Source: Lentzea guizhouensis (lineage in GTDB: Bacteria > Actinomycetota > Actinomycetes > Mycobacteriales > Pseudonocardiaceae). Taken from it: a DNA stretch of 64,000 bases. The notes beneath the pieces were generated by a model. It saw only the letters and a program-made list of their open reading frames with translations, searched no databases and was not told the origin of the DNA. A program made the translations under genes and the position numbers. The stretch spans positions 9,796,001 to 9,860,000 of the forward strand of contig NZ_CP016793.1 in the NCBI RefSeq assembly GCF_001701025.1. The letters are read 5' to 3'. This document shows positions 19,831 to 32,717 of this stretch, piece after piece. Within the stretch, counting starts at the first letter, position 1. The number at the start of each line of letters is the position of its first letter.

Positions 19831-21705
19831 TCAACTGGTGACCTTGCGCGCGGCCACCAGCCGTCCGTCCGCGAAGCCCTCGACGCGCACCTCGGCACCG
19901 GACGTGGTGAGCGTGACGGTGTGTGCGCCGTCGGCCACGTCGAGCGAGGTCGCCGGGCGGCCGTCGACGTAGACGTCCACCCGGTCGAGGTTCACGGTGT
20001 CCAGCGAGACGGTCGTGCCCGCGACCGCGACCCCGAGGCGGCGCACCGGCTGCTCGGCCAGCAGCTCGGCCGCCCGGTTGAGCAGGTCGACGTTGCCCTC
20101 CAGCAGGTCCGCGCGCGTCAGCTGGTGCCGGTGCGTCGGCCGCACGCCCAGGTCCTCCACCGGCGTGCCGGCGAGCTTGCCGACGCGCAGGGTGCGGCGG
20201 ATGGAGACGCGCATGTTCGCCTTGTTGGGCAACGGCTTGTACGGCGTCTCGGTGTCGCCGGGCGCGGGGATGCGCAGCAGCGTCGAGAGCAGGCCGTGCG
20301 TCCACACGTTCGCGCCGCCCGCACCGGTGTTGTCGTCCACGCCGAGGATCGGGCCCAGCGAGTGGTCCGCCCAGCCGGCGGCGAAGATGTCGGTCGCCGA
20401 GTAGCAACGGGCGTCGGTGACGAGCACGACCGGACCGTGGTAGGTCTGGCCCACGGAGTTCGCGCCCTCGGCCGGGGTGATCGTGTGGGCGCAGGAGAAC
20501 GCCTGGCCCGTCTCGGTCGACGAGTCGAGCGACGGGAACCACGGGCCGAGGTTGATCTGCCCGGTCGGGTCGTCGGCGTGGCGGCGGCAGATGCGCAGGT
20601 TCAGCGGGGTGCTGAGGAACTGCACGGGTTCCGGCTCGACGCGGCGCGGCGTCATGGTCTGCAGCAGGAACTCCGAGGCGAAGATGTGGCCGCCGCCGTT
20701 GTCGCGCACGTCGACGATGAGGCCGTTCTGCGGCAGCAGAGCCGCGAGCCGGATGAACTCCTGCAGGAACTTCTCCGGGTCGTCCACGCTGAACGTGAAG
20801 ATCCGCAGGTGCCCGAACGTGCCGGACGGCGTGACGACCGGTCGCGCCCGGAACACGCCGGGCATCGTCGTCGGCACGTCGGTCACGCTCATCGCCACCG
20901 CGCCGCCCGCGGCCTCCGCGGCCACGACCTTGGGTGCGTGCAACAACTTCTTGGCGCGTGCCTTCTCGTCGGAGTCGAGGTCGACGCCCTGCGCGGCGGC
21001 CGCGGGTGAGAGCTCGTCGACGTCGGTCATCGGCGGGAGGTTCTCGGTCACCTGCCACGAGACCCGGAGGTCCTGGCTCGTGCCTTCCGCGTCGCGGTAG
21101 GTCACGACGACCCACTCCTCGTCCGGCGGGAGCTGGATCACCAGGGGGCGCAACGTGAGCGACTCGAGGCCGCGAGCGAGGTTCGCGGCGATGTTGCTGC
21201 CGGCGAAGACCGCGCCGTTCAACGCGACCGCGCGGGCGACGGGGGTGCCGTTCCAGTGCGTCACCTCGGCACCGACCGAGAGCTCGGTGAAGCCGGCGAC
21301 CGTGCGCGCGACGAGGTACTGCTCCGCGCCGTCGTGGAAGCAGCGCTCCAGCTGGAACGGCAGGAAGGCGATCTTGCCGGCGAACGGGGCCGGCAGCAGG
21401 TAGTTGGTGTGCAGGTCGCGCACCGAGTGGAAGGTGCTCGACAGCTCGCGGTGGAACTGCCACTCCGGCTCGGCGGTGGCGTCGGTCTGCCGCTCGAGTC
21501 TCGCTCTGAGCACCCTGAGCCGCTGCACCGGGTTCACCGCGTGCATCGCGACCTTCAACGGCAGGTGCGCGTAGTTCTGTTCGAGCAGGATCAGCGCCTG
21601 GTCCACGATGAGCTTGCGCTGCGCGAGCGTGAGAGTGCCCGCGGTGGCCAGGAACTCGGCCAGGCCGACGGAGTTTGCGACGTTCGGGTGAGCGGTTGCG
21701 GTCAT
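19831..21705 (-). CDS. S41-family (tail-specific-like) serine peptidase
   Basis: A 624-residue protein. Helices fill residues 1-90. The region FSVDDPEKFLQEFIRL, then LIVDVRDNGGGH, then TDARCYSATDIFAAG (nucleophile Ser near 434) is the S41 catalytic core. It also resembles S41 members that work inside the cell or on peptides, since I see no signal peptide. The C-terminal 90 residues look like a beta sandwich (TVSLDTVNLDRVDVYVDGRP). The usual PDZ domain is not obvious. The ATG has AAGGAGG seven bases upstream, a very strong site. It is divergent from the large membrane hydrolase. Peptidase class fairly sure; substrate unknown. Confidence 0.85.
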   Translation of the reverse strand: MTATAHPNVANSVGLAEFLATAGTLTLAQRKLIVDQALILLEQNYAHLPLKVAMHAVNPVQRLRVLRARLERQTDATAEPEWQFHRELSSTFHSVRDLHTNYLLPAPFAGKIAFLPFQLERCFHDGAEQYLVARTVAGFTELSVGAEVTHWNGTPVARAVALNGAVFAGSNIAANLARGLESLTLRPLVIQLPPDEEWVVVTYRDAEGTSQDLRVSWQVTENLPPMTDVDELSPAAAAQGVDLDSDEKARAKKLLHAPKVVAAEAAGGAVAMSVTDVPTTMPGVFRARPVVTPSGTFGHLRIFTFSVDDPEKFLQEFIRLAALLPQNGLIVDVRDNGGGHIFASEFLLQTMTPRRVEPEPVQFLSTPLNLRICRRHADDPTGQINLGPWFPSLDSSTETGQAFSCAHTITPAEGANSVGQTYHGPVVLVTDARCYSATDIFAAGWADHSLGPILGVDDNTGAGGANVWTHGLLSTLLRIPAPGDTETPYKPLPNKANMRVSIRRTLRVGKLAGTPVEDLGVRPTHRHQLTRADLLEGNVDLLNRAAELLAEQPVRRLGVAVAGTTVSLDTVNLDRVDVYVDGRPATSLDVADGAHTVTLTTSGAEVRVEGFADGRLVAARKVTS

Positions 21706-25133: not shown

Positions 25134-26188
25134 TCAGCACGGCCAGGTCAGGGCCACCCCTCCCGCGAGCTGCGGCCCGGACACCGGTTCCAGCACCGCC
25201 GCGCGCACGAGGTTGAGCACCTCGTACCGCGGTCCGGCGCGGCGGACCAGGCCGCGCACGCTCAGCGCGTGCACGGCATCCTCGCTCTCCCAGCCGATCC
25301 GGTCGACCATCCGCGCCAGCACCGCGCGTTCCTCCGCGTCCAATGTGGACAACGAGCGGCGCAGCGAGTCGCGCAGGTGGGCCGAGGTCGGGTCGAGCGG
25401 GTTGGAGCGCAGCCGTTCCAGCAGGTGCTGCGGCGAGTACACCATGAACCACCCGGCGGCGAACTCCACCGCCGAGGGCAGGCCGTCCAGCTCGTGCACC
25501 AGCCCGATCAGCGCGGCGTGGTTGGCGGGCTCCGGGCGGAAACCCGGCCGCACCCGGCGCACGTGCGTCACGAGCAGCTGCACGGCGGCGTCGTCGGCCA
25601 GCGGTGCCAACGGGAACACGTGCTCGCCCGGCAGCCCGGTGGGGCGAGCGCGGTGACGACGATCCGCAGCCGCGGGTGCAGCTCCAGCAGCCGCGGGTCC
25701 GGCACGTGGTCGGTCACCAGCAGGGTGTCCGCGGCCGGGTCGATCGACGGCAGGCGCGCGGCGGGCAGCCACAGCACCGACCAGCCGAGCCGGAAGTGCA
25801 GCTCGCCCGCGACCTCCAGGGCGAGCCTGGTCTTGCCCACGCCGCTCACCCCGGTGACGGTCACCAGGCGGGTGCCGTCGACGAGCAGGTCCGTGAGCGC
25901 GGCCGCCTCCACCTCGCGGCCGACGATCGCCGACGACGGCGCCGGCGGTGCCACCGACACCTTGCGCGCGGGCCGCCCACCCGCCTGCTGGAGATCTGCC
26001 CGGCTGGTGTCGTCCAGCCGCAGGCCGTCCGCGAGCAGGCGCACCGTCTCGGCGCGCGGCGACCGGGTGCGGCCGCATTCCAGGTCGCGGATGGCCCGCA
26101 CGCTCAGCATCGCGAAGTCGGCCAGCTGCTGCTGGGTGAGGCCGGCGTGGATGCGGTGCGTGCGCAGTAGTTCCCCGAACTCCTTCAT
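25134..26188 (-). pseudogene. HTH/NB-ARC transcriptional regulator with an internal frameshift
   Basis: The first 180 or so codons encode an XRE-type helix-turn-helix (LTQQQLADFAMLSVRAIRDLECG, residues 18-40) and the start of an NB-ARC/STAND ATPase (Walker A GVSGVGKTR). The remaining 170 codons, in another frame, encode its continuation: LPGEHVFPLAPLADDAAVQLL, ELDGLPSAVEFAAGW and a winged-helix end. The frames join near 25645-25652 at a GC-rich run (GCGAGCGCGG). One base too few, or two too many, explains it; with correction the product is about 350 residues. GGGAGGA precedes the ATG. It is divergent from lanM, so it is the likely local regulator. It may be a sequencing error or true decay. 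Confidence 0.75.
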
Positions 26189-26295: not shown

Positions 26296-28995
26296 ATGCG
26301 CTCTCCACCCGCGCGTGCGAGGTTCGGCGTCGTGATCCCTGCAGCGGCGGAGTTCCTGGAGCGCGCCACGGCCGCGCCCCGCTCCGGAGCGCCTGCCGAC
26401 GACAGCTGGACCGCCGCGTTCGCGCACGCGCTGCGACCGCTCGTGGACGCCGCGCGCACCGAGGTGGCGCCGCCGTTCGACGCCGCGTTCGCCGAGCAGC
26501 TGGGCCTGCGGCTGGTGCGGATCGCGACCCGCACGCTCGTGCTGGAGCTCAACCAGGCCCGCGGCACGCTGGCCGGTGACACCCCGCGGGAGCGGTTCCT
26601 GTCCTTCACCCGCACGCTGGACCTCACCGCGCTGTTCGGGCGCTACCCGGTGCTGGCCAGGATGCTCGCGCAGGCGTGCGAGCAGGCGGTGGCGGCGCAC
26701 CACGAGCTGTCGTCGCGGTTCACCCGCGACCGCGCGGACATCGTGCGGAAGGTGTTCCGCGGTGCCGACCCCGGTGCGCTGACGCTGATCGAGACCGGTC
26801 AGGGTGACGCGCACCAGCAGGGGCGGACGGTGGCGGTGCTGACGTTCTCCTCGGGCGCCCGGCTGGTCTACCGGCCGCGCCCGGTCGAGCTGCACGCGCA
26901 CTTCGCCGCCCAAGTGGCGTGGTTCTCGCGGCGCACCGGCATCACCTTCCGCTCACCGCGGCTGCTGGCGCGCGACGGGTACGGGTGGCTGGAGCACGTG
27001 GCGCACGAGCCGTGCGCGGACGTGGCCGGGGTCGCGGAGTTCTACCGGCGGCTCGGGGCGCTGCTCGCGCTGCTCTACGCGGTCGACGGCACGGACATGC
27101 ACTACGAGAACGTGATCGCGTGCGGTGACCAGCCGGTGCTCGTGGACGTGGAGACGTTGTTCCACCCGACGCTCACGACCGGTGCCGACCCGGCGGCGCT
27201 CGCGATGGCGCGGTCGGTGCAGCGGACCGCGCTGCTGCCGCACATGCTGCTCGGCGACAACGGGATCGTCGACGTGTCCGGTGTCGGCGGCGACCGGGGC
27301 GTGCCGTCGCCGCTGGACGTCGTGGACTGGGCCGACGCGGGCACCGACCGGATGCGGCTGGTGCGGCGGCCGCGTGAGTCGGTGGGCGCGCTGAACCGGC
27401 CCGTGCTCGCCGGGCTGGCCGCCGAGCCGGCCGACTACCAGGACTCGCTGCTGGCGGGCTTCCGCGCGGGCTACGACGCGATCGTGGCGCATCGCGACGA
27501 GCTGCTGCGGCTGGTGCGGGAGTGCACCGACGACGAGGTGCGGTTCGTGGCACGCCCGACGCGCCTGTACGGGACGCTGCTGGACGAGTCGACGCATCCG
27601 ACCGTGCTGCGCGACGCGCTGGACCGCGACCTGGCGTTCGGCGTGCTCGTGGTGGACGACCCGCTGTTGGACGCGTTGGTGCCGCACGAGGTCATGGAAC
27701 TCTGGCGCGGCGACGTGCCGTTGTTCGTGTGCAAGCCCGGCTCGCGCGATCTGTGGACCGGGTCCGGGTTCCGGCTGCCGGGGATGCTGCCGGAACCCGG
27801 GCTGCACGCGGTGGAACGCAAGATCGCCGCGTTGAGCGAGGTCGACCGGCACGACCAGCAGTGGATCATCGCGGCCTCGCTCGCCTGCCGCCCGCGCCCG
27901 GTGTCGCACCACAGCGGTGCGGCGGTGTCGGGCCACGTGGCCCCGGTCGACCCGGACCCGGCGCGGCTGCTGCTGGCGGCGTGCGGAATCGCCGACCAGA
28001 TCCTGGCGCAGGCGGCGACCGGCCAGGACCGGGTGAACTGGCTGGGCCTGGAGCTGGTCGACGACCGGCACTGGACGGTGCTGCCGATGGGCGCCGGCCT
28101 CACCAACGGCTACACGGGCGTGGCGCTGTTCCTGGCCGAGCTGGGCGCGCTGACCGGTGCCGCCCGGTACGTCGACTTCGCCTCCGCGGCCCTGCGGCCG
28201 CTGCCGGGCCTGCTGGAGTCGTTCGCCGCGTCACCGGAGCTGGTGTCGGCGGCCGGCGGAGGCCTGCACGGCCTGGGCGGCATCTGCTACGCGTTGTCCA
28301 GGCTGGTGCCGTTGCTCGGCCTGGACCCCGCGCTGCTGTCGTCGGCCGTGTCGCTGATGCCCCTGACCGACACGTCGTTCACCGTCGTGGACGGCGTGGC
28401 CGGCTCGCTCGCGGCCATGCTCGCGGTGAACACGCCTGAGTCGCTCGTCCTGGCTGACCACTACGCGACCGTCCTACGAGGCGCGATTCACCCCGCCAAT
28501 GGTTTCGCCCGCGGCCATGCGGGAATCGGATGGGCCCTGCGGCGTTACGCGGAGGCCGTCCACGACGAGTTATCGGATGTGGCAGGTCTGGCCTTCCTGG
28601 AGAGCGACGCGATCGACACCACCGACACCGGCTGGTGCTCGGGCCTCGCCGGCGTGGCCATGTCCCGGCGCGACGACCGCCTCGCCCAAGCCCTGGCGGA
28701 ACGGGACCCGTTGCGGGACATGAGCCTGTGCCACGGCGAGCTCGGCGTGGTGGAGGCGCTGTCCACCCACCACCCGAACCTCGCCACCCGGCGCACCGCC
28801 CTGCTGCTCGGCAGGCTCGACGAACACGGCCCGCGCTGCGCCACCCCCGGCGGCGTCCCGTCACCGGGACTGCTGACCGGACTCGCGGGCATCGGCCACG
28901 GGCTGCTGCGCCAGGGCTTCCGGTTGCCGTCCGTCCTGCTGCTCGAACCACATGACCACTACAGATCGAACGACAACGAGGAGTGCACCAGATGA
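26296..28995 (+). CDS. lanM: Class II lanthipeptide synthetase LanM
   Basis: An 899-residue bifunctional enzyme that dehydrates Ser/Thr in a precursor peptide and then adds Cys thiols to make lanthionine rings. The dehydratase half keeps VDGTDMHYENV (263-273), VDVETLFH (283-290) and RPTRLYGTLL (420-429). The usual VYKPR motif reads VYRPR. The LanC-type cyclase half keeps GHAG (His741), WCSG (Cys781) and CHG (Cys812-His813), so the zinc site is complete. Start uncertain: GTG 26245 and GTG 26332 (with GAGG before it) are also in frame. The next gene, a 62-residue peptide, overlaps by four bases. No transporter or protease gene is near. Confidence 0.92.
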   Translation: MRSPPARARFGVVIPAAAEFLERATAAPRSGAPADDSWTAAFAHALRPLVDAARTEVAPPFDAAFAEQLGLRLVRIATRTLVLELNQARGTLAGDTPRERFLSFTRTLDLTALFGRYPVLARMLAQACEQAVAAHHELSSRFTRDRADIVRKVFRGADPGALTLIETGQGDAHQQGRTVAVLTFSSGARLVYRPRPVELHAHFAAQVAWFSRRTGITFRSPRLLARDGYGWLEHVAHEPCADVAGVAEFYRRLGALLALLYAVDGTDMHYENVIACGDQPVLVDVETLFHPTLTTGADPAALAMARSVQRTALLPHMLLGDNGIVDVSGVGGDRGVPSPLDVVDWADAGTDRMRLVRRPRESVGALNRPVLAGLAAEPADYQDSLLAGFRAGYDAIVAHRDELLRLVRECTDDEVRFVARPTRLYGTLLDESTHPTVLRDALDRDLAFGVLVVDDPLLDALVPHEVMELWRGDVPLFVCKPGSRDLWTGSGFRLPGMLPEPGLHAVERKIAALSEVDRHDQQWIIAASLACRPRPVSHHSGAAVSGHVAPVDPDPARLLLAACGIADQILAQAATGQDRVNWLGLELVDDRHWTVLPMGAGLTNGYTGVALFLAELGALTGAARYVDFASAALRPLPGLLESFAASPELVSAAGGGLHGLGGICYALSRLVPLLGLDPALLSSAVSLMPLTDTSFTVVDGVAGSLAAMLAVNTPESLVLADHYATVLRGAIHPANGFARGHAGIGWALRRYAEAVHDELSDVAGLAFLESDAIDTTDTGWCSGLAGVAMSRRDDRLAQALAERDPLRDMSLCHGELGVVEALSTHHPNLATRRTALLLGRLDEHGPRCATPGGVPSPGLLTGLAGIGHGLLRQGFRLPSVLLLEPHDHYRSNDNEECTR

Positions 28996-29180
28996 ACGAG
29001 TCCCTGCACCGCCCGGCCGACCAGCCCGCGCCGGTCGAGCACGTGATCGGGGAGATGGATCTCTCACCCAGGTCCTACGCGGGCGCCAGAGCACGCGCGC
29101 TGGCCGGGGTCACGCTGGCGGTGGGTGTCTTCGCGGCGTTCACGCCGACGCTGTCGGACACGACGGTCAGCGTGGTCTGA
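28992..29180 (+). CDS. Candidate RiPP precursor peptide without cysteine, coupled to LanM
   Basis: A 62-residue peptide whose ATG overlaps the LanM stop (ATGA). The first 36 residues are polar and leader-like (PAPVEHVIGEMDLSPRSYA). After ARARALAG comes a hydrophobic stretch and a Ser/Thr-rich end, FTPTLSDTTVSVV, with six hydroxyl residues in the last 12. There is no cysteine at all. If it is the LanM substrate, only dehydration, or ring closure by some other nucleophile, is possible. It might instead be a small membrane peptide or immunity factor. Position and size favour a precursor; modification is inference. Confidence 0.6.
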   Translation: MNESLHRPADQPAPVEHVIGEMDLSPRSYAGARARALAGVTLAVGVFAAFTPTLSDTTVSVV

Positions 29181-29403: not shown

Positions 29404-32283
29404 ATGCAGACCCGAGCGCCCCAGGTGGTCGGCCGAGACCGGGAGGTCGAGGCCCTCGCCACGGCACTCGAACGCACCCGGCGGGGGCAGGGTGGCGCGG
29501 TGTTCCTCACCGGGGAGGCGGGGATCGGGAAGTCGCGGCTCGCCAGGCTGGCGGCGGGGCAGGCGTTCGACGAGAGCATGCGGGTGCTCAAGGGACGCGG
29601 GACGACGATCGGGCCGATGGTGCCGTTCCGGCCCATCGCCGAGGCGCTGCTGGGGCTCTTCCGCCACGAGCCGCCGGACGACACCACGCTCGGGCCCTAC
29701 AAGCCGGTGCTGGGGACGTTGATCCCCGAGTGGCACGACCAGCAGTCCACCACGGAGTCCGTCGTGGTGCTGGCGGAGGCGGTGCTGCGGTTGCTGACGT
29801 CGGTGGCGCGCAAGACGCCGTGCCTGCTGGTGCTGGAGGACCTGCACGACGCGGACGCGGAGACGCTCGCGGTCATCGAGTACCTGGCGGACAACCTGGA
29901 GGAGCAGCCGGTCCTGCTGCTCGCGACCATCCGCAACGACCCCGGCAACGCGCTCGAGCTCGTCCACCGGATCGTGCGGCGCGACGCGGCCGCGCAGCTG
30001 GAGCTCACGCGGCTCACCAAGGCGCAGGTCCAGCGGATGACGGCGGCTTGCCTGGAGAGCGAGCAGGTGCCGGACGAGCTCTGCGATCGCTTGTGGACGG
30101 ACAGCGCGGGGAACCCGTTCGTCGTCGAGGAGCTGTTGCACGGCATGGTGAGCGGCGGGCTGCTCGTCCCGAACGCGCGCGGCTGGCAGGTGCTCGGCGA
30201 GCTGAAGCTGCCGGTGCCCGCGGCGTTCGTGCGCAGCGTCGCGCACCGCACGGACCGGCTGGGGCCGCAGGGGCGCGAGGTGTTGTCGGTGGCGGCGGTG
30301 CTCGGGCACCGGTTCCCGCTCTCGGTGGTGCAGAAGGTGACCGGGCACGACGACCGGGCGTTGCTGAGCCACCTGCACGCCGGGGTCGCGGCGCAGCTGG
30401 TCACGCCGGACGAGCCCGCGCCGGACTGGTACGCGTTCCGGCACCCGTTGACGGCGGACGCGTTGCTGGCGCAGCTGACGCCCGCCGAGCGCGCCGGACT
30501 GTCCGAACGCACCGCGGACGCCGTCGAGGAGCTGCACCCCGGGCTGCCCGGCGACTGGTGCCCGCTGGTGGCCAAGCTGCGGTTCGACGCGGGCGAGCCG
30601 GGGGACGCGGGGCTGCTGTTCGCCGAGGCCGGGAAACGCGCGTTGCGCAACGGCGCCACGAACTCCGCGGTCAAGCTGCTGGACCGGGCCCACCGGTTGC
30701 TGACCGAGCCGGCGGCACGGGCGGACGTGCTGGACGTGCTGCTGCCCGCGCTCGCCGAGGCCGGCGAGTTCGAGAAGGCGTTCCAGCTCGGTCAGGCGCT
30801 CGGGGAGCTGCGCGGGCTCGACGGGCCGCGCAGGGCGAAGCTGCACACCCGGCTCGCGCGCGTGGCGTACCTGGCGGGACGGTTCACCGACGGCGCGGAA
30901 CAGGTGCGGGCCGCGCGCACGTTGCTGGGGCCGGACGCACCGGACGAGCTGAGCGCGCCGCTCGACGTGAACTCGGCGTTCCTGACGTTGAACATCCCGA
31001 GCCCCGACCGGATCGCCTCGGCCGCGCGTCTCGCGCACCGGGCGGCGGACGCGGCGGCACGGGCGCGGTTGCCGATGGTCGGGTGCGAGGCGTGGCAGCT
31101 GCTCGGGATCATCGCGCGCGAGCAGAACCTGGACGAGGCCAACGCGTGCTTCGACCGGGCGCGAGCGCTTGCGGACACGCACAAGCTGCCGATCCAGCAC
31201 ATCTACGTGTTGGTGCGCATGGCGGGCAACGACTGGCTGGCCTCCGGCAGCACGGCGTCGCTGGAGGGCACGCACGACGAGGCGTGCCGGGCGGGCGCGA
31301 TCACCGTGGCGTACAACGTGGACGCCATCATGGCGTTGCAGTCGGTGCTGACCGGCCGCTACACCGAGGCGAGCGAGCAGGTCGACCGCTGCCTGCAGGC
31401 CACGGTGCGGTTGCAGCTCAGCGCCCTCACCCGGTACCTGCTGATGGTGAGGGCGACGCTGCACGCGCACCAGGGCGACCGGCAGGCCACCGACCTGGCG
31501 GTGCAGGCGTTCGAGCAGAGCGCCAGGGGCGGTGCGCAGGAGGTGCCGCTGTGCTCGGGGCTCGCGAAGGCGTTCTGCGCGTTGCTGGAGGAGAACCACG
31601 TGCTGGCGGCGCAGGAGTTCGACCGCGCGGCGGCACAGGAGTCGCAGAACCCCACCACGTTCCACCTCTCCGGCACGCACGGCATGCGCGTGCTGCTCGG
31701 CGTGCTGGACGGCCGGTTCGGGTGGCCCGAGTACACCGCGCTGTCGGCCGCGTCACCCGCGCGGATGCGGTGGAACAAGCAGTTCGCCGACCTCGCGCAC
31801 GCCGTGCTGCTGGGCCGTGAGGGCAGGGACGCCGAGGCGGCCGAGGCCTTCCGCTCGGCGCAGGAGGCCGCGGCGCCCTACCCGATGGCGCGGCACCTGG
31901 GGCTGCGGCTGGTCGCGGCGCAGGCGCAGCGGTGGGGTGACCCGGTCACGTGGCTGCGCGCCGCCGAGGAGTACTTCCACCAGGCCGGCAACGCCGCCGT
32001 CGCGTCGGCGTGCCGCGGGTTGCTGCGCCAGGCGGGAGCGCCCGTGCAGCAACGCCGCAGCGGCACCGACCAGGTGCCCAAGCAGCTGCGCGGGTTCGGC
32101 GTGACGGTGCGGGAGTTCGAGGTGTTCGTGCTGCTCGCCGACCGGCTGGGCAACAAGGCCATCGCGACGCGGCTGCACATCTCGCCGCGCACGGTCGAGA
32201 AGCACGTGGCGTCGCTGATCGCGAAGACCGGTCAGCCCGACCGGGAGTCCTTGTCGGCGTACGCGGCGGAGCTGAACCGCTGA
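29404..32283 (+). CDS. LAL-family (large ATP-binding LuxR) regulator
   Basis: A 959-residue regulator. Walker A GEAGIGKS (37-44) and Walker B LLVLEDLHD form the STAND ATPase. A long helical, TPR-like region (about 400-870) follows. The C-terminal 65 residues are a LuxR helix-turn-helix: VTVREFEVFVLLADRLGNKAIATRLHISPRTVEKHVASLI. LAL proteins often switch on secondary-metabolite clusters in response to an unknown inducer. The closest candidate target is the lanM locus just upstream in the same direction, though the terminator separates them. Its last 52 bases overlap the convergent gene's 3' end. Family confident; target inferred. Confidence 0.92.
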   Translation: MQTRAPQVVGRDREVEALATALERTRRGQGGAVFLTGEAGIGKSRLARLAAGQAFDESMRVLKGRGTTIGPMVPFRPIAEALLGLFRHEPPDDTTLGPYKPVLGTLIPEWHDQQSTTESVVVLAEAVLRLLTSVARKTPCLLVLEDLHDADAETLAVIEYLADNLEEQPVLLLATIRNDPGNALELVHRIVRRDAAAQLELTRLTKAQVQRMTAACLESEQVPDELCDRLWTDSAGNPFVVEELLHGMVSGGLLVPNARGWQVLGELKLPVPAAFVRSVAHRTDRLGPQGREVLSVAAVLGHRFPLSVVQKVTGHDDRALLSHLHAGVAAQLVTPDEPAPDWYAFRHPLTADALLAQLTPAERAGLSERTADAVEELHPGLPGDWCPLVAKLRFDAGEPGDAGLLFAEAGKRALRNGATNSAVKLLDRAHRLLTEPAARADVLDVLLPALAEAGEFEKAFQLGQALGELRGLDGPRRAKLHTRLARVAYLAGRFTDGAEQVRAARTLLGPDAPDELSAPLDVNSAFLTLNIPSPDRIASAARLAHRAADAAARARLPMVGCEAWQLLGIIAREQNLDEANACFDRARALADTHKLPIQHIYVLVRMAGNDWLASGSTASLEGTHDEACRAGAITVAYNVDAIMALQSVLTGRYTEASEQVDRCLQATVRLQLSALTRYLLMVRATLHAHQGDRQATDLAVQAFEQSARGGAQEVPLCSGLAKAFCALLEENHVLAAQEFDRAAAQESQNPTTFHLSGTHGMRVLLGVLDGRFGWPEYTALSAASPARMRWNKQFADLAHAVLLGREGRDAEAAEAFRSAQEAAAPYPMARHLGLRLVAAQAQRWGDPVTWLRAAEEYFHQAGNAAVASACRGLLRQAGAPVQQRRSGTDQVPKQLRGFGVTVREFEVFVLLADRLGNKAIATRLHISPRTVEKHVASLIAKTGQPDRESLSAYAAELNR

Positions 32284-32630
32284 CGGTCGCGCTTGAGCCG
32301 CGCCTCCAGCTCGTGCCGCTTCCCGCCGGCCAGATCGGTGCGCGCGGCCCGTTCCACATCGCGGAACACGTCGTAGTACATGTCGTCGTACTCCTCGACG
32401 ATCTGGAACGTCCACCGGCCCGGCAGCACGTTGCGGCCGACCAGCTCGCGCTGCACCCGGTCGGCGTGCTCGTCGTGGCCCGCCTTGCGCAGCAGCTCGA
32501 TCGCCTCGTCGAGCATGAAGTCGGCGGTACCGGTGAGCTGGTGGAACGAGTAGAGGTGCCCGCGAGCGCGTTCGGTGGTCTCCAACGCGGCGCTGAGCTT
32601 GCCGAGCGCCTCGATCGTCTGGTCGTCCAT
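32232..32630 (-). CDS. Conserved hypothetical helical protein
   Basis: A 132-residue soluble, mostly helical protein. ERARGHLYSFHQLTG, FMLDEAIELLRKAGH and PGRWTFQIVEEYDDMYYDVF look conserved, and I recall similar actinobacterial hypothetical proteins. The tail is basic. The ATG begins DDQTIEALGK; an upstream in-frame Met would add an unlikely Arg-rich stretch. The 3' end overlaps the LAL regulator's end by 52 bases, tail to tail. Function unknown. Confidence 0.65.
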   Translation of the reverse strand: MDDQTIEALGKLSAALETTERARGHLYSFHQLTGTADFMLDEAIELLRKAGHDEHADRVQRELVGRNVLPGRWTFQIVEEYDDMYYDVFRDVERAARTDLAGGKRHELEARLKRDRQRFSSAAYADKDSRSG

Positions 32631-32717
32631 GTCAGACCGAATACCCCGCTCGCGTTTGTCTCTACCGCCGACGGGTAGTCGGTCACCGAATGTGTCCACT
32701 CAAAGCGAGGTGACCCC

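Follow-up and report, generated by a model that had tools for sequence, protein, structure and literature searches.

A conserved LanM cassette with a cysteine-free precursor-like peptide in Lentzea guizhouensis and related actinobacteria

Three adjoining genes on the forward strand of a 64,000-nucleotide stretch of Lentzea guizhouensis DNA (contig NZ_CP016793.1, positions 9,796,001 to 9,860,000; hereafter the window, with coordinates counted from its first base) encode a LanM-type synthetase, a 62-residue precursor-like peptide devoid of cysteine and an AAA/LuxR regulator. We hold with very high confidence that they constitute a real and conserved cassette. Concerning its chemistry, we infer from sequence, with moderate confidence, a class-II-type system for a ribosomally synthesized and post-translationally modified peptide (RiPP), in which LanM would dehydrate conserved Thr and Ser residues, no thioether would arise within the system's own peptide and the products would be ring-free dehydropeptides. 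Specifically, the three genes would work as one cassette of LanM, its own precursor and the regulator; LanM would bind the acidic leader (..IGEMELxP..), and phosphorylation and elimination at Thr57, Thr58 and Ser60 of the tail would give a short ring-free peptide carrying dehydrobutyrine (Dhb) and dehydroalanine (Dha). Lacking Cys, the peptide cannot form a thioether within itself, and the cyclase domain would be kept in the window lineage with its zinc ligands present and the canonical acid gone. More tentatively, peptides with a hydrophobic stretch would leave the cell by the general secretory (Sec) route, and there would be control by, or of, the neighbouring regulator.

The three genes and their conservation

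The lanM gene (26296-28995, forward strand) encodes an 899 aa protein with a DUF4135 dehydratase domain (residues 117-479) and a LanC-like cyclase domain (residues 598-872), which was aligned to LicM2 (6st5) and CylM (5dzt). It scored 636 bits against the NCBIfam profile TIGR03897 (cut-off 304) and matched the Pfam models DUF4135 and LANC_like each above its own cut-off, so that by domain content it is a class II LanM. Its TGA stop codon (28993-28995) overlaps the ATG of the peptide gene (28992-29180, forward strand, 62 aa plus stop) as ATGA. A putative ribosome-binding site, GAGGAG (28978-28983, forward strand), lies inside the 3' end of lanM and ends 8 bases before that ATG; the same hexamer precedes the peptide ATG in 21 of 22 Lentzea loci and AAGGAG takes its place in the remaining one. 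The peptide contains no Cys, and Ser and Thr make up six of its last 12 residues. The four-base overlap, the lack of Cys and the Ser/Thr-rich tail given in a preliminary description of the window were thus borne out by coordinates and sequence.

No Pfam family matched the peptide at E ≤ 0.1, and NCBIfam returned a single weak match (E-value = 0.091, 12.6 bits against a cut-off of 300). A protein search retrieved 48 proteins at E ≤ 0.1, itself counted. The organism names given among them are all Lentzea except for a single 'Nocardia sp. NRRL S-836', the LanM of which (L116) clusters with the window LanM in the tree. Cys is absent from 47 of the 48 aligned sequences, the other (P0049) carrying one within the hydrophobic stretch; Ser60 is shared by all, and Thr57 and Val59 by at least 90%. 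Across 22 of the 23 Lentzea loci (L056 was left out, as no matching ATG was found), the ratio of non-synonymous to synonymous substitution rates (dN/dS) was 0.33 for the whole peptide and 0.11 for the motif DTTVS (residues 56-60; 29157-29171, forward strand), the most constrained part measured. Ser60 and Val59 occur in 22/22 of these loci and Thr57 and Thr58 in 20/22; Thr57, Thr58 and Ser60 are the putative dehydration sites. Position 62 is variable (V, K, R, Q, H or D) and the tail has no conserved Lys. A chance open reading frame (ORF) was ruled out by the 48 database proteins, the adjacency in Lentzea and the dN/dS of 0.33.

The third member (29404-32283, forward strand) is a 959 aa protein with an N-terminal AAA_16 ATPase domain (residues 7-172) and a C-terminal GerE/LuxR helix-turn-helix (residues 901-947), both above cut-off. 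This architecture and a length of about 950 aa are those of LAL-type regulators, and we take the product to be of the STAND/LAL type. The preliminary description had recognised the LanM/peptide pair and had missed this conserved third gene.

A LanM orthologue was found in 23 of 24 Lentzea genomes (in G011 only a fragment of it, at the edge of a contig), and these genomes all hold the peptide as well, directly downstream of it. The 24th (G019) has no LanM orthologue, peptide or regulator and only a 35% LanM match elsewhere in the genome; at the corresponding locus (L187), its S41, lipase-like and SodC genes are followed directly by DUF4383, glutamate-cysteine-ligase-like and further genes, and the stretch gave no matches to the XRE, LanM, peptide and regulator genes or to the small gene at 32235-32699. 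Beyond Lentzea, the cassette occurs in Saccharothrix, Umezawaea, Kutzneria, Amycolatopsis, Kribbella and Streptomyces loci. A peptide profile, built in rounds from the very loci then counted, recognised a peptide in 92 of the 101 loci of a first set and in 77 of 80 named actinobacterial loci, two sets that overlap in genomes. The preliminary description had named a lack of peptide homologues beside other LanM genes as refuting; with homologues directly after LanM in 23 of 24 Lentzea genomes and relatives in 77 of 80 named loci, that check did not refute it. The regulator lies downstream of LanM in 89/101 first-set loci (13 of them Lentzea, the window included; L183, with the regulator 3.6 kb from LanM, is counted) and in 79/80 named loci. 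Among 390 genomes of the family, 134 had LanM at E ≤ 1e-145, a threshold placed post hoc in an observed gap, and all 134 had the regulator (E ≤ 1e-190). Weaker LanM matches occurred in 16 genomes, two of which (G119, G179) had the regulator, and the regulator was present without LanM in G034 and G113. In a class-wide sample, LanM reached E ≤ 1e-90 in 8 of 394 genomes, own genome included. Apart from the regulator, no other neighbour from the window was matched in 40 non-Lentzea loci.

In four Lentzea genomes (G022, G009, G014 and G018; loci L032-L035) there is a second LanM, about 40% identical, with a Cys-bearing peptide ending in GSTCCRPEN or GSTCCTPEN. A second AAA/LuxR match adjoins it, so that one cell holds the cassette in a Cys-bearing form too.

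Cysteine-free and cysteine-bearing peptides

A total of 159 loci, unique in the sense of sharing no exact 400-base match, comprised 112 with Cys-free peptides, 35 with Cys-bearing peptides and 12 in which no peptide was found; the class was scored on the last 22 residues, with L087 and L221 scored as Cys-bearing though their Cys lies further inside. The preliminary description had missed the Cys-bearing cousins. Cys-free tails include TTVSVV (Lentzea), TTVSAPGLPL (Saccharothrix), TTVSAPGFPV (Umezawaea), TTVSAPGTV (Kutzneria), DTSVSAPNVTW (Streptomyces) and, with extra tandem peptides, TVVTNGTFAL (Amycolatopsis); the Kribbella peptides are mostly Cys-free with ends that differ from the TTVS type. 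One to three peptides per LanM were present at the loci examined, and three tandem Cys-free peptides follow one LanM in the Amycolatopsis-type loci L098, L100, L101, L254, L255, L257 and L260. A lone terminal Cys (..QTVSAPGMPC) was seen in L218 (Saccharothrix yanglingensis), whose neighbours in the tree are otherwise Cys-free.

T-C-C stands near the end in 19 of the 35 Cys-bearing loci, and the other 16 are mixed, some with a single Cys. All 19, together with some peptide-less loci, form one LanM clade of 20-21 rows (Shimodaira-Hasegawa-like approximate likelihood ratio test, SH-aLRT, 100). Relatives of the peptide within the same clade have T-C-C ends of the kind that an ordinary lanthipeptide core might carry, which identifies the tail as the core. 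When the peptides are aligned, V-S lies opposite C-C, although short tails such as these align loosely. The Cys label changed 11 times on the 141-row LanM tree, from which the direction of change is not readable. Both LanM trees were quick searches with long branches; 15 of 101 loci (short broken ORFs) were left out of the first and 18 of 159 out of the second. The T-C-C clade (L110, L111, L114, L115, L131, L132, L134, L136-L142, L144-L148) has the AAA/LuxR gene downstream in nearly all loci, and the residue at position 739 of its LanMs is most often Asp.

The existence of Cys-bearing versions bears on the second alternative of the preliminary description, namely that LanM acts in trans on another peptide, with a Cys-bearing peptide elsewhere in the genome as the true substrate. 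ProcM is reportedly a class II enzyme that acts on distant peptides, a further, Cys-bearing peptide is indeed encoded in four Lentzea genomes, though beside a second LanM, and our profiles would overlook any Cys peptide whose leader is unrelated. A narrow peptide profile gave one match per Lentzea genome and overlooked the known Cys-bearing second peptides of the four Lentzea; it is too insensitive and hence a weak test for a second precursor. A broader profile that included Cys cousins (ten rows, the Cys cousins of G014 and G022 among them) recovered both the Cys-free and the Cys-bearing peptides in G009, G014, G018 and G022, although two of these four control genomes had given it no Cys cousin. 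In the own genome it matched only the adjacent peptide (E-value = 1.7e-20), followed, among the 150 of 260 candidates that were scored, by weak and partial matches inside longer frames, starting at E 0.007. The own genome also has a single LanM above cut-off in the genome-wide profile search, and the adjacent peptide is itself conserved. With one LanM and one profile-matched peptide, action in trans found no support and we consider it very improbable. Elsewhere in this genome, two class III LanKC genes (L268, L269; also L002, L003) exceed the NCBIfam cut-off and there are two more LanC-like matches.

Active-site residues and the cyclase domain

Nine dehydratase residues are kept in the window LanM (D171, H173, D267, H269, N272, D284, E286, R416 and T422), which correspond to D252, H254, D347, H349, N352, D364, E366, R506 and T512 of CylM; E366 we take to be a dehydratase residue. 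PMC4550811 names D252, H254, D347, H349, N352, D364, R506 and T512 as such. The nine positions read DHDHNDER[T/S] in 157 of the 159 loci, the exceptions being L253 (T to P) and L144 (D to E). The cyclase zinc ligands C781 (28636-28638), C812 and H813 (28729-28734) are all present as well (28636-28734, forward strand). Two further catalytic residues are replaced. At the site of CylM Lys274, which contacts the gamma-phosphate of ATP, the window LanM has R193 (codon 26872-26874, forward strand), and at the site of the His in the LicM2 motif GFSHG (GFARG in the window) it has R739 (codon 28510-28512, forward strand); the enolate-protonating His of this site is LanCL1 His219, NisC His212 and CylM His835 (PMC9934072). 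What had been described as complete dehydratase and zinc-cyclase motifs therefore holds for the nine dehydratase positions and the zinc ligands, and fails for the ATP-phosphate Lys and the proton-donor His. Arg occupies the CylM Lys274 site in 27/112 Cys-free and 6/35 Cys-bearing loci. Position 739 is R in 72, H in 18, W in 11, D in 5, E in 3 and F in 3 of the 112 Cys-free loci, and D in 14, H in 6, R in 6, N in 3 and six single others in the 35 Cys-bearing ones. The bulky Arg or Trp is commoner with Cys-free peptides (83/112 against 7/35) without being exclusive to them, which ruled out a strict link between R739 and a Cys-free peptide, and lineage accounts for much of the difference.

The unusual R193 and R739 could fit an enzyme that halts at phosphorylation, or a product cross-linked without sulfur through attack on the dehydro residue by another side chain (Ser, Lys) or the backbone; the CylM variant R506A leaves phosphopeptides behind (PMC4550811). 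We judge this quite improbable, because D171, H173, R416 and T422, whose CylM counterparts were mutated in the same study of phosphorylation and elimination (PMC4550811), are kept and the tail offers no conserved Lys for a cross-link.

A further observation comes from a clade of eight LanMs without the zinc ligands (L181, L253, L259, L262, L263, L265, L266 and L267), with named members from Streptomyces, Streptacidiphilus and 'Actinobacteria bacterium OV450'. Their zinc-site residues read TGR, HHR, HGH, DGR, HGR, VGQ, HHH and HHR, the dehydratase residues are retained (L253 is off at one site) and the peptides are of the Cys-free DTSVSAP type in seven of eight, none having been found in L265. 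The ratio of cyclase to dehydratase divergence is 1.5 in this clade and 0.78-1.26 in eight other groups. Outright loss of the zinc site was seen in none of the 35 Cys-bearing loci, where two altered sets (HCH, CCC) occur. This clade supports dehydration as the shared essential activity of the family.

The same zinc site can be read in another way. Given that 105 of 112 Cys-free loci retain the zinc ligands and that the cyclase domain is constrained in Lentzea and Saccharothrix, the domain might add an outside thiol (mycothiol, free cysteine or the Cys of another protein) to Dhb or Dha, in the manner of human LanCL1 with glutathione, and intermolecular thiol addition by LanCL enzymes is described (PMC9934072). 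We find this unlikely, because Arg replaces the proton-donor His in the window LanM as well as in 72/112 Cys-free loci and one clade has dropped zinc altogether; bacterial NisC and HalM2 moreover bound no glutathione when tested (PMC9934072). In LanCL1 a zinc LanC fold likewise acts on Dha/Dhb, with the differences that glutathione is used and the catalytic His is kept (PMC9934072).

Alternatively, LanM may no longer be a synthetase and may instead act as a partner in regulation, as CA_C0082 of Clostridium acetobutylicum does, with the peptide as a small partner of the regulator. The tight linkage to the AAA/LuxR gene and the K-to-R and H-to-R changes at two active-site positions point in this direction, and CA_C0082 sets a precedent (PMC10301443). 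This too strikes us as doubtful: as described in PMC10301443, the CA_C0082 homologues lack the zinc motif and the dehydratase residues, whereas the nine dehydratase positions are kept here in 157/159 loci, and some cousins have T-C-C cores.

Several observations weigh against the reading of the cassette as a maker of ring-free dehydropeptides. Arg replaces CylM Lys274, and the CylM variant K274A gave little dehydrated product (PMC4550811). R739 is not tied strictly to Cys-free peptides, Arg being found in 6/35 Cys-bearing loci. The loss of zinc is one event only and the divergence excess of that clade is modest, a zinc-bearing Streptomyces pair (L242, L246) being already at a ratio of 1.23. 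In Lentzea the zinc ligands are all kept and the cyclase shows much the same constraint as the dehydratase (ratio 1.08), although a pure dehydratase would not need it. Finally, Sec export, considered below, is not general across the family. Nevertheless, of the two alternatives offered by the preliminary description, the first, a dehydrated and ring-free or non-thioether product, is the better supported, its chemistry being predicted from sequence.

Neighbouring genes, known systems and significance

Profile searches with NCBIfam and Pfam detected neither an exporter nor a leader protease beside the window genes, in agreement with the earlier statement that none lies next to them. The S41-family peptidase gene at 19834-21705 is not adjacent; it is also present in the cassette-less G019 and was set aside as leader protease. 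None of the 14 largest groups of ORFs of at least 110 aa in the flanks of 52 loci (4.5 kb, reaching about 1 kb past the regulator) is an exporter or protease common to the whole family. Export of the window peptide by the Sec route is plausible, and an Arg-rich plus hydrophobic stretch at residues 29-50 (29076-29141, forward strand), signal-peptide-like by reading, may account for it. A hydrophobic 15-mer (Kyte-Doolittle mean of at least 1.6) was found in 74 of 102 peptides, mostly after Arg or Lys. The 28 peptides below this mean, 19 of which come from the Amycolatopsis-type loci L093-L103, ruled out universal Sec export. Several Cys cousins have, by reading, Ala-x-Ala-like sites ahead of the core, and the AFA motif of cinnamycin is a predicted signal-peptidase site (PMC2843593).

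Other genes recur around the family, named here from reading sequence starts. A transporter-like ORF (major facilitator superfamily by reading) stands about 6.1-6.6 kb after the LanM start in L262, L263, L265 and L267 of the zinc-less clade, and is a possible exporter there. A glutamate-mutase-like ORF precedes LanM in L246, L254, L255, L260 and L264 (Amycolatopsis and two Streptomyces), a response-regulator-like ORF lies upstream in 11 T-C-C and Streptomyces-type loci, and a BTAD/AfsR-like ORF recurs in 10 loci at scattered positions. Upstream of lanM in the window, a divergent XRE/AAA regulator gene (25137-26187, reverse strand) is split across two frames. In 12 Lentzea relatives inspected its front is in one open frame with the same C-terminus, and the split reflects either a broken gene or an assembly error. 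This gene was rejected as a cassette member, as it had no matches across 40 non-Lentzea loci.

Compared with the class II lanthipeptide systems of LicM2 and CylM, the cassette shares a two-domain enzyme, an adjoining precursor-like peptide and the dehydratase and zinc residues. It differs in a core without the Cys of a lanthipeptide product, in the Arg at the sites of the acid His and of CylM Lys274, in having no exporter or protease found alongside and in its linked AAA/LuxR regulator. Linaridins such as cypemycin are likewise nearly or wholly ring-free peptides with several Dhb residues, but are made by unrelated enzymes and are not known to involve a LanM. ProcM, the prochlorosin synthetase, is said to be one promiscuous enzyme for many peptides, whereas the cassette loci show one to three peptides per LanM, Cys-free across most of several genera. 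Cys-less peptides do occur among the prochlorosin synthetase substrates (PMC11251773), which is the likeness between the two systems. The LanM-like proteins of the CA_C0082 type (PMC10301443) offer the closest regulatory parallel: they are tied to regulation outside the usual lanthipeptide cluster, and they stand beside agr operons, whereas the window LanM has its zinc motif and an AAA/LuxR neighbour.

The top-ranked full-text matches included none that describes a LanM together with a Cys-free peptide dedicated to it and a LuxR-type gene, a search that left most subscription literature outside its scope, and the consulted sections of PMC10663231 hold nothing on such a cassette. ORFs whose estimated core has no Cys are filtered out in RODEO-based mining (PMC7268733), and the survey in PMC11251773 required at least one Cys in the substrate, so that, by these rules, the cassette falls outside both surveys wherever its peptide is Cys-free. 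Lanthipeptide clusters are counted among the rare ones of specific strains in a Lentzea genus paper (PMC12300779), an account from which the near-universal cassette seen here (23/24 genomes) differs.

The probable product of the cassette is a modified peptide of a ring-free kind that has been overlooked. More speculatively, and as something we would at present call rather unlikely, it may belong to a widespread actinobacterial form of peptide signalling, in which LanMs would have been repurposed for ring-free electrophilic dehydropeptides made from Cys-free precursors and read by the neighbouring, dedicated AAA/LuxR protein, the zinc domain being vestigial or adding an outside thiol. The family offers a natural series (T-C-C peptides, TTVS peptides with zinc and DTSVS peptides without zinc) that probes the role of the LanC domain where no internal thiol is present, and it also bears on the place of RiPP enzymes in signalling as opposed to antibiosis.

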